From IMG/VR virus record IMGVR_UViG_3300050190_000178, positions 1 through 41,634 of that record: a stretch of 41,634 nucleotides of DNA; one strand, written 5' to 3'. Of this stretch, positions 120 through 35,289 are shown in pieces (positions within the stretch are counted from its first letter, which is position 1; each line of letters starts with the position of its first letter). The notes below the pieces were generated by a model. The model saw nothing but the letters and a program-made list of their open reading frames with translations, had not been told where the DNA came from and searched no databases. This DNA is from a virus. Both the position numbers and the translations under genes were made by a program.

Positions 120-794
120 CGTTCACATACGGTTGATGAAAAGGTATCAAGTAACATAAATGAGATTGATTCAGCATTTAATCGTTTCTTCGATAATTAT
201 TCTATTGAGAATCTAAGCGATGGAGAAAATGCATATTTAGGGTTTTATGCTTCATTATATGAACAGGTTTTTATGCTTACGCCTTCCAAGGAGAAGTATA
301 TTATTTTGTTAGATGAACCAGAGGCAAGGTTACACCCTGAGCTTGCAAGAAATTTTATTAATGAATTGATACTTTTTTTAAGTAATTTTAGTGAGCAAAA
401 CAAGAAATTTCAAGTTGTTATTTCAACACATTCCCCATTTATTTTATCTGACATTCAATCTAACAATATTATATATTTAGAAAAATATAGTGACGGATAT
501 TGTAAACCTATAAAACAAAAACTAAACACATTTGGGGCAAATATCCATACGCTTTTAAAAGATGGATTTTTTATGACATCCACCATGGGTGAATTTGCAA
601 CTAACAAAATAAAAGAAGTTATTTCATTGATTGATGAATATAATTCTGAAGACATAACTGAGAAACAAAAAAATGAGTGGTTATATATTATTAATTCCAT
701 TGGTGAACCGTTGATACAAAATAGAATTATGAAAATGTTATTTGATTGCACATTAAATGATTTCCTGCATATGGCAGCTAGTGGGCTACATTAA
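120..794 (+). pseudogene. AAA (AAA_21/OLD-like) ATPase, C-terminal remnant
   Basis: The frame is open from 120, just after a stop at 117-119, to 794; the first ATG is only at 273. It encodes the C-terminal half of an SMC/ABC-like ATPase of the kind found in OLD- or Septu-type defence proteins. Visible parts are a signature-like LSDGEN (about 219-233), the Walker B LLDEPEARLHPE and the H-loop STHSPF. The N-terminal half with the Walker A P-loop is absent from the bases upstream. The last residues (after LFDCTLNDF) look like an unrelated tail reached by recombination. A ten-residue-scale C-terminal helix typical of such proteins seems lost. I read it as a broken gene, truncated at the 5' end and probably at the 3' end. 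A partner nuclease is not visible. Confidence 0.6.
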
Positions 795-824
795 AATAGA
801 TTGATCACAATTTGCCCAGCTGAA

Positions 825-833
825 TGCTATAAT
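825..833 (+). promoter_or_regulatory. Extended -10 promoter ahead of hsdR
   Basis: TGCTATAAT is a perfect extended -10 box. No good -35 hexamer lies 17 bases upstream (TCACAA), which is usual for extended -10 promoters. It would drive hsdRMS after a leader of about 200 nt. The leader carries a 12-bp direct repeat, AATCAGAAATGG, at 999-1010 and 1027-1038. Confidence 0.4.
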
Positions 834-1049
834 AAGGTTTATATGGTAGATTAATATGGCTCAAGTGAAATGCCAAGACGTTGGAATACTTAAGATGCTT
901 TGCATTGAGTATGACTACATATATTTCAGTACTTTGCGAGAGTTATGTCAGAAGTAGGGATCAATCAATGGGCTGTCCAACAATGACTAATCTACTACAA
1001 TCAGAAATGGAATGGTTAATAATTCTAATCAGAAATGGTGGGGTTATAT

Positions 1050-3743
1050 TTGACTGATCAGAATAAAGAATTAGAGTGGAAAACTCGCAAAGAGAGAATA
1101 GACACAAAGCTTGTTTCACTTGGCTGGACGATTATTACCTACAAATCAATAATCGATAAAGCGAGCTTATTTAACCATGCTGTTTATGAGTATGAAACCG
1201 CTACCGGTCCTGCGGATTATGCACTTTTTGTTAACGGACAGCTCTTAGGTTTTATGGAAGCAAAAAAAGTATCTACTAATCCCCAAGAAGTGCTTGGTCA
1301 GTCAAAAAGATACTCAAGAGGCGCAGTCGATGGTGCTGGTAATTGGGACGGTTACAGAGTGCCCCTTCTCTACTCATCTAATGGGGAAAAAATATGGTTT
1401 TTAGATATTAGATATAGCAGGAATATTCGCAGAGAAATCTGTGATTATCATACCCCAGCAGCTATGAATGAGCTGTTTAATAGAGATTATCAAAAAGCAC
1501 TGAATAAATTAAGTGGCATTCCTATTAAGGAAAACAGCAAACTTCGGCCATATCAAGAGCAGGCGATTATTGATACAGAAAAGGCATTAATAAACAATAA
1601 ACGTCAAATGCTTATTGCAATGGCAACAGGTTCAGGGAAAACCTTCTTAACTGTTTCTCAAATATATCGCTTTCTGAAGTCTGGAACTGCAAAGAGGATA
1701 CTATTTTTGGTTGATCGGAAAGCACTTGCGGCACAGGCTGTAAGAACTTTTTCCTCCTTTGATACTCCTACAGGATTAAAATTTGATACTGAGTATGAGG
1801 TATATAGTCAAGCCTTCAGAAAAGAAGATTTTGGCGATGACGAGCCATTTAACTCAAAGGTGCTGCCAAATGAATATCTGACAAAGCCGGGAGTAGAACA
1901 CACCTTTGTCTATGTATGTACCATTCAAAGAATGGCTATGAACCTATATGGCAAAGATGCAATTTCAGCTGAAAGCATGGCCCTTGAGGGAAATATTTCT
2001 GATAGTAGCACCCTTGACATTCCAATTCATACTTTTGATATGATAATCGCTGACGAGTGTCACAGAGGCTACACATCAAAGGAAACTTCGACATGGCGTA
2101 ATGTACTCGAATATTTTGATGCTGTAAAGATCGGATTAACTGCAACTCCAGCCCCACATTCTCTAAGCTTATTCAATGAGGTTGTGTATAGGTACACAAC
2201 CGAACAAGCCATAGAAGAAGGCTACTTGGTTGAATATGAAGCTGTGAAAATTAAATCTGATGTAAAAATATACGGTGCGTTTTTGCGTGAAGGTGAGCAT
2301 GTAGGCCTGGTAGACAAAACAACAGGAAATGTTGTTCATGATGAGCTGGAAGACGAACGAGAATATTCATCATCTGAAATCGAAAGCAAGATAACTGCCC
2401 CTGACAGCAACAAAAAAATCATAAAAGAGCTTGCGAAATATGCTGCTAAGCATGAGGAAGAAACCGGACACTTTCCGAAAATGCTTATTTTTGCTGTGAA
2501 TGATTTACAACATGCTTCTCATGCTGACCAGGTGGTCAGAATTTGTCGTGAGGTTTTTAATCGTGGAGATGATTTTGTGGCAAAAATTACAGGAAGTCCA
2601 AGTGTTGACCGCCCACTTCAACGGATTAGGGAGTTTAGAAACCGCCCTAATCCAGCAATCGTGGTTACAGTTGACATGCTTTCCACAGGTGTTGATGTGC
2701 CTGCCATTGAATATATTGTATTTATGCGCCCAATTAAATCAAGAATATTATGGACACAGATGCTCGGGCGTGGCACTCGACTATGTCCAGAAATATATAA
2801 AACACATTTCACAATATTTGACTGTTTTGATGGTAGCTTGATTGAATATTTCAAGAACACTACTGAATTCACAATTGAGCCACCGCAGAAAGACGTTGTT
2901 TCGCTTGAACAGGTTATTGAAAACATCTATAAAAACAACGATAGAGAATACAACGCCAATGTTCTAGTTAAACGATTACGCCGCATTGAGAAGAACATGA
3001 GCGGCCAAGCTCGTGAAAAGTTTTCGCAATATATAGACGATGGTGATATTGGCAAATTAGCAGGAGAGCTAAAGAAAAAGATAATTAGTGATTTCACTGC
3101 AACAATGAAGCTATTGCGAGACAAAACATTTCAAGAGTTGCTTATTAACTATCCAAGAGGACAAAGTTCGTTTATAATCGGTTATGATGTTGTTGATAAT
3201 GTATCCTCCGAGTGGGTTTTTCACATTGGTGAGGAGTATGTTAAGCCCGAGGATTATCTTGTTTCTTTTGAACGATTTGTTAGAGAAAATCCAGAACAGA
3301 TTGATGCCATTGAGATTCTGTTGAAGAGACCAAAGGAGTGGAAGACCGACACGCTTAACGATCTCAGAAATATGCTTAAAAAGAATAAGTTTTTAGAAAC
3401 TGACCTGCAGAAAGCTTATCACATTGTTTATAGTAAAGCTCTTGCTGATATTATCTCCATTGTTAAGCACAGTGCAACACAGGAAGCGCCCATATACACA
3501 GCACAGGAGCGGGTTGAGCGTGTTATGCGTAAAATACTCAGTGAGCAAAACTTTACTCCAGAACAAATTAAGTGGCTAGAGTTAATTCGTGAGCATCTTG
3601 TTGAAAATCTAACCATTGATATTGAGGATTTTGAGCTAATGCCAGTTTTTACACGTCAAGGCGGCAAAGCAAAAGCACGCAAAATATTCAATGGTGATTT
3701 TGATAAGCTTATTATGGAGATTAATGAGCTTATTGCATCGTAA
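1050..3743 (+). CDS. hsdR: Type I restriction enzyme R subunit (HsdR)
   Basis: This is the translocase/endonuclease subunit of a type I restriction-modification enzyme. It cuts unmodified DNA after ATP-driven translocation as part of an HsdR2M2S1 complex. Counting from the ATG at 1035, the nuclease core is D61...E75-A-K77, Walker A is ATGSGKT at 197-203, DECH is at 340-343, LTATP follows, and the helicase motif VI is QMLGRGTRL. The C-terminal third fits the EcoEI-type R C-terminal domain. I chose the TTG at 1050 because GGTGGGG lies 7 bases before it, while the ATG at 1035 has no ribosome site; the other start adds 5 residues. At about 897 aa it is within the family range. It is 19 bp upstream of hsdM and looks intact. 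Confidence 0.95.
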   Translation: MTDQNKELEWKTRKERIDTKLVSLGWTIITYKSIIDKASLFNHAVYEYETATGPADYALFVNGQLLGFMEAKKVSTNPQEVLGQSKRYSRGAVDGAGNWDGYRVPLLYSSNGEKIWFLDIRYSRNIRREICDYHTPAAMNELFNRDYQKALNKLSGIPIKENSKLRPYQEQAIIDTEKALINNKRQMLIAMATGSGKTFLTVSQIYRFLKSGTAKRILFLVDRKALAAQAVRTFSSFDTPTGLKFDTEYEVYSQAFRKEDFGDDEPFNSKVLPNEYLTKPGVEHTFVYVCTIQRMAMNLYGKDAISAESMALEGNISDSSTLDIPIHTFDMIIADECHRGYTSKETSTWRNVLEYFDAVKIGLTATPAPHSLSLFNEVVYRYTTEQAIEEGYLVEYEAVKIKSDVKIYGAFLREGEHVGLVDKTTGNVVHDELEDEREYSSSEIESKITAPDSNKKIIKELAKYAAKHEEETGHFPKMLIFAVNDLQHASHADQVVRICREVFNRGDDFVAKITGSPSVDRPLQRIREFRNRPNPAIVVTVDMLSTGVDVPAIEYIVFMRPIKSRILWTQMLGRGTRLCPEIYKTHFTIFDCFDGSLIEYFKNTTEFTIEPPQKDVVSLEQVIENIYKNNDREYNANVLVKRLRRIEKNMSGQAREKFSQYIDDGDIGKLAGELKKKIISDFTATMKLLRDKTFQELLINYPRGQSSFIIGYDVVDNVSSEWVFHIGEEYVKPEDYLVSFERFVRENPEQIDAIEILLKRPKEWKTDTLNDLRNMLKKNKFLETDLQKAYHIVYSKALADIISIVKHSATQEAPIYTAQERVERVMRKILSEQNFTPEQIKWLELIREHLVENLTIDIEDFELMPVFTRQGGKAKARKIFNGDFDKLIMEINELIAS

Positions 3744-32193: not shown

Positions 32194-33924
32194 TTATTGT
32201 TCCTGTGTTAGTTCCCCTAATAATTTCAATAATTGGTTCTTATTTATTGGGCCACCACAAGAAAATGATATACCCTTGTATTCCCAAAATATGCTTATAG
32301 AAGTCCCCATATTGTAGAATACTCCTTCCACCTTATCAGAGTTAAATCCGAATTTTACGGTTTCTTGTGTGAAGTCAGAGAGAGCAGAGATAACCTTACC
32401 ATCTTGGCTTCCTCCTTGAGATAGTATAAACTTCGGGAATTGTTCTCCTACTACGGTATAAAGGCTGTTTAATATCCCGCCGTTCTCGTCATTCATAACC
32501 CATTGATAGCTAGTTTTATAACTTGAATTTGCCAGAGTATATGGAGCATAGCCCAGCAATTGGGTTGCTTTCTCAAATGTTGTTTCTTTGGGAAGTGCTA
32601 TACTCGGACGTTCATCGATTGTTACATCATGGGGAAGGTTTAGTTCAAACATTGAATCGTTTAATTCTTGATTTATTCTCAGTTCCCTCACTTCTCTACG
32701 ATTAACAATATTTCCCTTGATATTATAATATTCGGTTACAATAGGCATCCAAGTATCCTTATCCATCCAGAGATGGGTACTCATTTCGCCTAATTCGGCA
32801 ACCTTCTCCGTAAACTGTATATGAAGGGTTGGTCGCCCTTTCATGTATTCAGTATCAAGAACCCGGCTACTTTTATTCTCCGTCATCCGCTTGAGGGAAT
32901 CAACATAATTAAAGTTCATCCGTTCCTTATATTCTTTACTCAACGTTACTTTCGTTGCCTTTTTAGTTTCTGTAGCCCAACTTATGACGTAATTATGCTT
33001 AGCACAGATGACAATTGAACCCCCAGCCGGAACATCATACTCCATTCTGTAACAGTCAGGATTTTTAAACCAATTATGGGTGGTAGTAGTCTTTGAAGTT
33101 CCATTTTCAAAGCTGGTTTCATCAACGATGATCTCATAATCCTTAATTTTTTCTTGTATAGATTGGACCTTTTGCTTTATATCTTCAGCTGTAAGAGTGA
33201 TTCTACCCGTTAGAGAATGCAATAACGTAAGGAATTTCTTGTGCTTTTCAAGATCCGCCATCCACTCAGGATTTTGATCTAATTCACTCTCAAAAGCAAC
33301 TCTTTCAGGATGATCCATGGTTCCCTCTAGATAATTATAAGCTCTATCACTTAGTGTTAATTGATTTTGAATCATATTCCCTCGCTCCTTTTGTATTAAT
33401 GAGAAGTTTTCAAGCATTTCTTGCAACTTAGTCCTTGCCCTAAAAAGTCGAGACTTAACGGTACCTAAAGGAAGTCCATAATCAGTGGCTACTTTTTTTA
33501 AGTCATTTCCTCTAACATCGACATCCAGGAGAATTTGCTGTTGTTTTAACGGAAGGGTTTGAATTGCCTGAGCCAGTTCTACTTTGAGGACAACATAATC
33601 TTCAATGGCGAGAGCCTTTTCTCTTAACATCTGAGGTTCTATGCAAGAGATTTCCCTGCGTTTTAACCGAAGTATCAAGTATATCTCGTTCGTGAGAATT
33701 CTTTGCCACCAGCCAAAGAAAGCTTGATCATCTTGTAAATTAGCCAGATTCTTATAGAGTTTAATCATGGCGTTTTGGACAGCATCTTGAGCTAAGTCGC
33801 CATCTCTCAATAAAGAATACGCCTTATTCCGAGCGTTAGGATATAGCTCCTTGAGCAAACATTCCCAGGCCTCTGTATTTCCACGCTTTGCCTTACTGAT
33901 TAGTTCCGTACTAATCTCTACCAT
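32194..33924 (-). CDS. ECF sigma factor fused to anti-sigma-like and LolA/DUF4367-like domains
   Basis: The product is 576 aa. Residues 1-170 are an ECF sigma factor: region 2 (AQDAVQNAMIKLYKNLANL, FFGWWQRIL) and region 4 (LPLKQQQILLDVDVRGNDL, then LPLGTVKSRLFRARTKL). A segment at about 182-235 looks like an anti-sigma zinc domain (YNYLEGTMDHPERVAFESEL), but the usual CPEC is NPEW, so zinc is not bound there. The rest resembles the lipoprotein-carrier-like and DUF4367 domains of membrane anti-sigma factors. No transmembrane helix is visible, so the chain would be cytosolic. GGGGGTGA precedes the ATG. Its partners, signal and regulon are unknown. It lies antisense inside the phage late operon. 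Confidence 0.75.
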   Translation of the reverse strand: MVEISTELISKAKRGNTEAWECLLKELYPNARNKAYSLLRDGDLAQDAVQNAMIKLYKNLANLQDDQAFFGWWQRILTNEIYLILRLKRREISCIEPQMLREKALAIEDYVVLKVELAQAIQTLPLKQQQILLDVDVRGNDLKKVATDYGLPLGTVKSRLFRARTKLQEMLENFSLIQKERGNMIQNQLTLSDRAYNYLEGTMDHPERVAFESELDQNPEWMADLEKHKKFLTLLHSLTGRITLTAEDIKQKVQSIQEKIKDYEIIVDETSFENGTSKTTTTHNWFKNPDCYRMEYDVPAGGSIVICAKHNYVISWATETKKATKVTLSKEYKERMNFNYVDSLKRMTENKSSRVLDTEYMKGRPTLHIQFTEKVAELGEMSTHLWMDKDTWMPIVTEYYNIKGNIVNRREVRELRINQELNDSMFELNLPHDVTIDERPSIALPKETTFEKATQLLGYAPYTLANSSYKTSYQWVMNDENGGILNSLYTVVGEQFPKFILSQGGSQDGKVISALSDFTQETVKFGFNSDKVEGVFYNMGTSISIFWEYKGISFSCGGPINKNQLLKLLGELTQEQ

Positions 33925-34029: not shown

Positions 34030-34040
34030 AGCACCAGCGT

Positions 34041-34050
34041 CCTTGATAGA
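34041..34050 (+). repeat. Target site duplication, left copy
   Basis: CCTTGATAGA abuts the left terminal repeat. An identical copy abuts the right end at 34495-34504. Confidence 0.85.
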
Positions 34051-34494
34051 TAAGGGGTTCCATTTTGGAGTTGAAACCTTAAATTAGCAGCAGAAATCGC
34101 AAAGGTTTTAGCGTATTTTCAACACTTCGAAAAGCACATTTTCGGCATATAAGTAATATAGCGCAATAGAAGGTCGCCCATTACAAAAATCGTTGATGGG
34201 TGGCCTTCTAGCGTGTTAGCATAGCAGCTACGGTAAAGGATAATTTCAAAAATCAGCACAAAATCAGCATTTTTTCAGCAAGCAAAATAGCATATCATTA
34301 GCATCGTATATTTAAAATAAATAATTAATTATTTTGCTAATGGCGTGCTGAATATATGCTGAAATATTGCTGTTTTCATAACTGACCCGCTTGTACCAAG
34401 GGTTATAGGAGAGATAGACTGGATAATTATTTGCTGTTTTTATGTTAAAAAGGGGTACTATTTTGGTCTTTCAACTCCAAAATGGAACCCCTTA
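34051..34494. mobile_element. 444-bp miniature inverted-repeat element (MITE-like)
   Basis: The perfect 26-bp terminal inverted repeats lie at 34051-34076 (beginning TAAGGGGTTCCATTTTGG) and 34469-34494. They are bounded by the 10-bp duplication CCTTGATAGA on both sides. No gene fits inside, so it is non-autonomous. The interior holds a strong hairpin (34167-34210: TAGAAGG...CCTTCTA, 15-bp stem with G-U pairs) and an inverted pair CATTAGCA (34296-34303)/TGCTAATG (34335-34342). A degenerate extra copy of the terminal repeat is at 34450-34466. It is very A+T-rich in the middle. The parent transposon is not in the window; a 10-bp duplication suits some IS4-like DDE families, which is only a suggestion. 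Confidence 0.88.
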
Positions 34495-34504
34495 CCTTGA
34501 TAGA
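34495..34504 (+). repeat. Target site duplication, right copy
   Basis: CCTTGATAGA, identical to 34041-34050, lies directly outside the right terminal repeat. Confidence 0.85.
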
Positions 34505-34560
34505 ATGCTGGTGCTTTACGTAACATCACTTATATGTCCCAAAAAGGAATTTATCTCTGT

Positions 34561-34755
34561 TTAACTGTCAAGTTTAAATAATTCATCTACCGTAGTGTTT
34601 AGTAGTTTAGCAAGTTTCATGGCTAATTCCAGCGTAGGGCTATACTTTCCATTTTCAACTGCATTAATCGTTTGCCTTGTAACGCCAAGCGTAATTGCTA
34701 TATCTTCCTGTCTAAATCCAAGTTGTTTTCTTAATGTTCTAATATTATTTTTCAT
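34561..34755 (-). CDS. XRE-family regulator of a cargo pair (YgzD-like)
   Basis: The 64-aa protein is a bare HTH_XRE domain: MKNNIRTLRKQLGFRQEDIA, then VTRQTINAVENGKYSPTLEL, then LLNTTVDELFKLD. It is of the short YgzD-like type that is often paired with a small membrane protein of unknown role. It overlaps the end of that gene by 11 bases, so translation is coupled. It probably represses its own promoter through the two matching sites at 35066-35130. The pair is unrelated to phage morphogenesis and looks like carried cargo. Confidence 0.85.
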   Translation of the reverse strand: MKNNIRTLRKQLGFRQEDIAITLGVTRQTINAVENGKYSPTLELAMKLAKLLNTTVDELFKLDS

Positions 34756-34960
34756 CTTTCCCGAGTTTCCATGTCAAAATAGATTGAATTACAACAAGAA
34801 CAAGAAATTGTGTTATGAAAAGAAAAAATTCTAATCCCAAAGGTTTTTTCTGAATGTAATCATAGATAATCCAAATCACTAAAAATACATTTATATATGC
34901 CCAAGCCCCTTTTATCGCTTTCAAACTAAGGCTCATTTCCATTTCGTCCATTTTGTGCAT
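34745..34960 (-). CDS. Small two-helix membrane protein of the XRE pair
   Basis: The product is 71 aa from the ATG at 34960 (GAGGGGGT 6-8 bases upstream); the longer frame to 35101 has no ribosome site. Two hydrophobic helices (about 20-36 and 43-62) are joined by a short charged turn (DYIQKKP). The family is not recognised. Small membrane proteins of this size commonly precede YgzD-like regulators. It is the first gene of the leftward pair, with its promoter at 35090-35117. Confidence 0.65.
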   Translation of the reverse strand: MHKMDEMEMSLSLKAIKGAWAYINVFLVIWIIYDYIQKKPLGLEFFLFITQFLVLVVIQSILTWKLGKDEK

Positions 34961-35065
34961 ACTCAACCCCCTCAGATAAATTATAAAAGTAACTTCCCGA
35001 CGACTAAAATAACGATACAAAATAATAAAGCAAACAAAATTGTTTTCATAAAACCACCCCTTGCA

Positions 35066-35130
35066 ATGTCTAAAGTGTTTTACATTGTTATCATAACACA
35101 TATGAAAAAAATGTAAAATACTTTAGACAT
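35066..35130 (-). promoter_or_regulatory. Promoter between two matching operators
   Basis: ATGTCTAAAGTGTTTTACAT (35066-35085) and its inverted copy at 35111-35130 match at 19 of 20 positions. Each contains TAAA-N4-TTTA dyad symmetry. Between and over them lies a leftward sigma-A promoter: -35 TTTACA (35117-35112), 16-bp spacer, -10 TATGAT (35095-35090). One operator covers the -35 and the other lies over the early transcribed region, a classic self-repression layout for the XRE protein. Confidence 0.75.
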
Positions 35131-35155: not shown

Positions 35156-35183
35156 AGCACCAGTGTCATGTGAACTGCTGGTG
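35156..35183. repeat. Second copy of the intergenic hairpin
   Basis: AGCACCAG (35156-35163) and CTGGTG (35178-35183) form a hairpin. The surrounding bases (AGCACCAGTGTC, then GCTGGTG and later TTTACAT) resemble 34030-34042 plus 34507-34525. The XRE pair is therefore flanked by degenerate direct repeats. Confidence 0.55.
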
Positions 35184-35289
35184 TTACTTTACATAGTGCT
35201 GCTTATGGGGCGATTCAATTGAAGAATAGCTAAACTGAGCACCTGAAAGGGTGCTTTTTCCATACCCGAAAACAAGGAGGTGATAATAT

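Follow-up and report, generated by a model that had tools for sequence, protein, structure and literature searches.

A transposase-less 444-bp element in a phage record, its probable relationship to Tn7491 and the preference of related elements for hairpin axes

Terminator hairpins are a described target of transposons. IS1272 and TnSha1, both of the IS1182 family, insert into such hairpins and leave no duplication (PMC4923244, PMC5678879). The SPRITE repeats of pneumococci likewise are small repeats which resemble terminators at gene ends; hairpin-loop targeting is not described in the available part of that account (PMC3049150). The nearest named relative of the element reported here is Tn7491, the dfrG transposon, whose ends and 9-bp target duplication have already been published (PMC10763498). 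That paper, citing Bertsch 2013, states that the transposon was first seen inside Tn6198, and it mentions neither terminators and hairpins nor a family. A literature search, with most subscription journals outside its scope and thus weak as evidence, found nothing on hairpin targeting, inward terminators or a family for Tn7491. One member of its transposase family is the 'insertion element protein' encoded next to dfrG on plasmids of staphylococci and enterococci (PMC8638950); the element there is Tn7491 itself.

Here, we compare with these systems a 444-bp element in the window, i.e., the complete IMG/VR virus record IMGVR_UViG_3300050190_000178 of 41,634 nucleotides, which carries terminase, portal, protease and capsid genes. 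The new observation is a preference for insertion on hairpin axes. Taken as a whole, the element is very probably a Tn7491-related mini-element, mobilised by a transposase acting in trans, inserted by cutting at a hairpin axis and equipped with a terminator of its own.

The element in the phage window and its same-ended sisters

The features of the element and its surroundings are collected in Table 1. As the initial annotation had it, the 26-bp ends are perfect inverted copies (0 mismatches), an exact 10-bp duplication abuts both of them, no open reading frame of at least 60 aa lies within the 444 bp, and the internal hairpin is visible directly in the sequence. The degenerate third copy of the end reported there is present (34449-34474, 7/26 mismatches), but the stretch from 34450 to 34466 is in fact the 3' arm of a terminator-like hairpin. 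The label MITE was apt in so far as the element is short and non-coding, has terminal inverted repeats and a target duplication, and shares its ends with an autonomous element. A strict multi-copy family is unsupported, since no second near-identical copy was found in the record or among the loci fetched.

Table 1. Features of the 444-bp element and its target site, in window coordinates
Feature	Position	Strand	Remark
Non-autonomous transposon, probably a MITE-like internal-deletion derivative (444 bp)	34051..34494
Left terminal inverted repeat TAAGGGGTTCCATTTTGGAGTTGAAA	34051..34076	+	Found without mismatch in Desulfosporosinus genomes
Right terminal inverted repeat, perfect copy	34469..34494	-
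Target duplication CCTTGATAGA (10 bp), left copy	34041..34050		Repeat search
Target duplication CCTTGATAGA (10 bp), right copy	34495..34504		Repeat search
Internal hairpin AGAAGGTCGCCCAT..ATGGGTGGCCTTCT	34167..34210		Readable in the sequence; not followed by a T tract
Right 242 bp of the element	34253..34494	+	74% identity to the right end of L009 (2898-3137)
Inward intrinsic-terminator-like hairpin (right end and degenerate third copy)	34450..34493	-	-16.0 kcal/mol
Target hairpin, 5' arm AGCACCAGCGT	34030..34040
Target hairpin, 3' arm ATGCTGGTGCT	34505..34515		Directly downstream of minus-strand operon 35101-34561
HTH_3 regulator gene	34561..34755	-	Its downstream hairpin is split by the insertion
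118-aa ORF preceding the HTH gene	34745..35101	-	No Pfam match

Over its first 62-70 bp, the element shares 82-87% identity with several left ends of the family. Together with the similarity of the right 242 bp to locus L009 (Table 1), this suggests, as the best reading, an internal-deletion derivative rather than one copy of a MITE present in high numbers. The segment 34077-34260 has 0 matches in 30 Desulfosporosinus genomes, and the element has no transposase of about 650-670 aa of its own. DNA searches of phages and plasmids with the element or its surroundings returned low-complexity matches only, and the exact end pattern does not occur in the viral contigs searched.

In Desulfosporosinus and related genomes, elements bounded by identical ends differ widely in what they contain, and each is flanked by a 10-bp duplication of its own. 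These sister copies harbour cargo genes, and most of them lack a transposase. The duplications are exact in L009 from D. nitroreducens (1846 bp, nitroreductase and MarR genes, ACTTATAGAA), L039 (1954 bp, TACAGAAGTA), L046 (831 bp, CCTTAAAGAC) and L050 (4399 bp, AbiEi/AbiEii and a truncated transposase, TGTTGATCAC), and match in 9/10 bases in L041 (3514 bp, TetR and PEP-synthase-like genes). Since the same paired 26-bp ends and 10-bp duplications recur in independent genomes, the observation is far beyond chance. By ends and duplication, autonomous and non-autonomous copies together belong to one family. As to cargo, the toxin-antitoxin pair AbiEi/AbiEii occupies 10619-12167 of L050, and a PemK/MazF-like gene is found at 7190-7900 of L162.

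The 18-bp core of the end was found in 10 genome contigs, 8 of which belong to Desulfosporosinus or to an unplaced Bacillota MAG. The 2 alphaproteobacterial matches lack the remaining end sequence and look like chance. On either side of the insertion, the DNA shows about 90% identity to genomes of Desulfosporosinus, and viral-contig relatives of the flanking phage proteins were not found. The host of the phage is probably Desulfosporosinus or a close relative.

Transposase-bearing relatives

The parent, given as unknown in the initial annotation, can be identified by type: it is a relative of Tn7491, with the best match in genome G165. This genome has two identical copies of 6576 bp (L163, L164) with a transposase of about 670 aa and a 97-aa ORF. 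Their ends (TAAGGGGTTCGATTTTGAAGTTGAAA) are 24/26 identical to those of the window element and their 10-bp duplications are GGGTATAGAG and TTAGTTATTT; one copy sits in a terminator-like target. They differ from the window element in being autonomous, in their length and in carrying cargo. Four further copies in G165 have the same ends and exact 10-bp duplications and lack a transposase (2076 bp, found twice, 3712 bp and 6330 bp, the last apparently with an IS66-like insert). Movement in trans is the simplest reading of these four copies, and their pairing with the autonomous copies is the best evidence here that a transposase encoded elsewhere may act on such ends. The earlier suggestion that the window element moved in this way thus gains support from same-ended copies with other contents and their own 10-bp duplications. 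One of the 2076-bp copies (L184, 1558-3633) apparently interrupts an HD-GYP-like gene at a CCCC..GGGG hairpin; L182 has the same length, lies in a different place and has another 10-bp duplication.

The transposase family, with proteins of about 650 aa, was reached starting from the truncated L050 transposase. The L050 fragment shows 57% identity to the G165 protein and 42-44% to other Bacillota proteins, and a tree groups L050 and G165 with a support of 97/100. An intact transposase of the TAAGGGG type was not found in Desulfosporosinus itself, the L050 copy being truncated. No significant Pfam match was obtained for the family. Of interest for a possible DDE triad in an RNase H-like fold, residues D282, D332, D375, D428 and E582 are invariant in the alignment. 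Single-sequence structure prediction gave a pLDDT of 31, too low for a fold assignment, and a profile search of solved structures returned chance zinc fingers only. An IS4-type transposase near L049 was an earlier candidate for the parent; it was abandoned, since the elements with matching ends (L050, L163) contain a different transposase.

Tn7491 shares with the window family a homologous transposase and a small companion ORF, and its ends (TAAGTAGTTCAGTTTTGGAGTACAAAA) have the core TTC..TTTTGGAGT in common with the window ends. Like the window element, it is inserted in terminator hairpin loops with a short exact duplication, and on its right side the end sequence pairs with a degenerate inverted copy to give a predicted inward terminator (-23.7 kcal/mol). 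Unlike the window element, it is autonomous, carries dfrG and mostly makes a 9-bp duplication. End type and duplication length go together: duplications of 10 bp accompany TAAGGGG ends, and those of 9 bp accompany ends of the TAACGGG or TAAGTAG type; one copy of Tn7491 has 10 bp. We rate the 444-bp element a non-autonomous member of a Tn7491-related family.

Outside the Bacillota, distant homologues of the transposase (about 22-25% identity, 521-614 aa) are encoded on proteobacterial plasmids of Pseudomonas, Polaromonas, Acidovorax and Rhizobium (L109, L110, L111, L112). At least two of these loci have perfect ends and 9-10-bp duplications, one of them in a terminator-like hairpin. Tn7491 was also observed in a prophage-like viral contig beside capsid and tail genes (L135, 165-3440), with the 9-bp duplication CTATTCGAT.

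Hairpins at the target sites and inside the element ends

The 10 bp of the duplication coincide exactly with the loop of the hairpin AGCACCAGCGT-CCTTGATAGA-ATGCTGGTGCT, which the initial annotation had overlooked. When folded with one copy of the duplication, the axis of this hairpin has an offset of 0.0 from the duplication centre and the MFE is -21.1. The hairpin belongs to a family of about 35 bp that is dispersed in Desulfosporosinus (AGCACCAGC..GCTGGTGCT). An orthologous or exact empty site for the window insertion was not found; paralogous copies of the split hairpin with a single loop are present in other genomes. A second relative of the dispersed hairpin lies in the window at 35156-35185, beyond the 118-aa ORF, such that the pair of HTH gene and 118-aa ORF is bracketed by similar hairpins.

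For 27 insertions, the flanks were joined with one copy of the duplication and then folded. A hairpin was counted if it had at least 8 bp, an MFE of -12 or below and a centre within 1 base of the duplication centre. The base-pair count of RNAfold alone proved a poor measure, as 27-32% of the controls pass, and energy and centring were therefore added. Compared with 9500 intergenic positions from the same loci, of which 2.1% have a centred hairpin, 17 of the 27 insertions do so (p 2.8e-22, taking sites as independent); within 4 bases of the centre, the count rises to 19/27. Many of the centred hairpins are intrinsic terminators. Weak hairpins were seen at L050, L119, L124, L135, L163, L164 and L182, and in L184, where a gene is interrupted, the hairpin is off-centre. 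About one third of the sites thus does not fit, and hairpin targeting is a statistical preference for the axis, not a rule. Copies of Tn7491 at different plasmid sites are located in hairpin loops with A and T tracts, e.g., AAAAAGAGCGGAT-CTTTTATAG-ATTCGCTCTTTTTT, and an element-free plasmid (L117) represents the empty site with a single copy of the duplicated 9-bp loop.

In L088, L046 and L041, the target hairpin is built at least partly from end sequences of the family itself, which would explain nested arrays. In L088, two family ends form a hairpin, and the autonomous copy (391-3687) is nested in its loop. Junctions of the form right end, 10 bp, left end occur in L041 (4011-4072), L048 (7986-8047) and L049 (1612-1673). 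When 2 mismatches were allowed, this junction pattern was found at background level, with similar forward and control counts.

On the minus strand, the right end of the window element folds with the degenerate third copy into the hairpin AAGGGGTTCCATTTTGG-AGTTGAAAGA-CCAAAATAGTACCCCTT-TTT, with a T tract at 34451-34447. This putative terminator faces the minus-strand phage HTH operon. It was not flagged by a simple, stricter consensus scan, as its loop is longer than the limit of 8 nt used there, and the left end of the element has no inward terminator. In 13 elements with 26 ends, we searched for predicted inward terminators with an energy of -14 or below within 160 bp of the end. They are enriched: of 364 control windows, taken mainly from non-coding DNA, 8.8% contain one, as opposed to 17/26 element ends (p 1.6e-12). 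Both ends carry one in the autonomous copies L163, L088, L162, L107 and L094, and neither end does in L113. Outward hairpins are enriched as well (10/26 ends), so that the direction is only partly specific.

Proposed mechanism and competing explanations

A transposase of about 650-670 aa characterises the family, together with a small companion ORF and TAA(G/C)GGGTTC..TTTTGGAG-type ends. We suggest that the transposase, supplied in trans, would make a staggered cut of 9-10 bp, symmetrical about the axis of a DNA hairpin that is usually an intrinsic terminator. By such a cut, the loop would turn into the target duplication and the stem would be split. The enzyme may recognise a cruciform extruded from the DNA, a hairpin that forms in single strands at replication, or simply the two-fold symmetry of the duplex. 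The insertion would disable the target terminator, but most elements would bring along terminators of their own, close to the ends and reading inward. For the window element, the right end paired with the degenerate third copy would stop transcripts from the HTH operon 35101-34561. With the broken stop signal replaced, we propose that the element is nearly neutral to the neighbouring genes. We lean slightly towards a further-reaching view, namely that a separate family, with Tn7491 as the only named member found, recognises terminator hairpins by their two-fold symmetry or by their extruded form, cuts on the axis, substitutes its own inward terminators and has spread in trans via many transposase-less derivatives, both miniature and cargo-bearing. 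It would be a lineage specialised for life in transcription stop signals that leaves host operons undisturbed.

Most sites lie in intergenic DNA, downstream of genes, and several have no hairpin, as would be expected from an ordinary MITE of an IS that tolerates intergenic DNA and inserts at random, with terminator loops left over by selection against other sites. We consider this improbable, since centred hairpins amount to 2.1% in intergenic controls of the same loci versus 17/27, and selection at the gene level would not place the hairpin axis within 1 base of the duplication centre. The nested arrays could also point to a cassette-like, site-specific recombination, in which the junctions of right end, 10 bp and left end serve as palindromic attachment sites. 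Such junctions in L041, L048 and L049 and the position of L088 within a hairpin of two family ends would suit it, but the 10 bp are the same on both sides of an element and different between sites, which fits staggered cutting and not the exchange of a fixed core, and a conserved tyrosine or serine recombinase was not seen in the elements. This explanation is very improbable.

Membership in the IS1595 family is unlikely. That family makes an 8-bp target duplication, rather than the 9-10 bp found here, where the ends start with TAA and the protein has about 650 aa. The transposase has a weak zinc-ribbon/HTH likeness to both IS1 and IS1595, but the NCBIfam zinc-ribbon matches stay far below the cut-offs (22.9-28.4 bits against 100 for the IS1 model), no match to an IS1595-type DDE domain was obtained in Pfam or NCBIfam, the protein is 2-3 times as long and the ends are different. 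In favour of IS1595, resistance papers list ISSsu9 in this family (PMC11366657), and one of them gives this name to the dfrG element (PMC8343405). In function, IS1272/TnSha1 comes closest, as the same kind of target, the terminator hairpin, is used (PMC4923244, PMC5678879). An inverted-repeat-replacing transposition of that type is nevertheless hardly conceivable here: those elements delete or replace the stem-loop, whereas the loop is duplicated and both stem arms are kept in our case, 27 sites show 9-10-bp duplications (one with 9/10), and the transposase is unrelated by profile search.

Cutting on the hairpin axis, as preferred here, would provide a target rule for a transposon by which trimethoprim resistance spreads in staphylococci, enterococci and Listeria, and would give a reason why its insertions are tolerated. 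With terminator loops as near-neutral landing sites, the locations of cargo genes and miniature copies should be predictable from this rule. Members of the Tn7491 family also occur in Bacillota from the environment and in the prophages of these bacteria, and proteobacterial plasmids carry distant relatives. The target preference also raises the question of a transposase that would read a DNA hairpin as target and yet, unlike IS1272, make a normal duplication.

A separate observation concerns the phage genes next to the insertion. Between the prophage terminase and portal genes, a 576-aa ORF (32194-33924, minus strand) carries sigma-70 regions 2 and 4 and is ECF-like. Relatives of it were not found in viral contigs; its C-terminal part shows a weak similarity to LolA/DUF4367.
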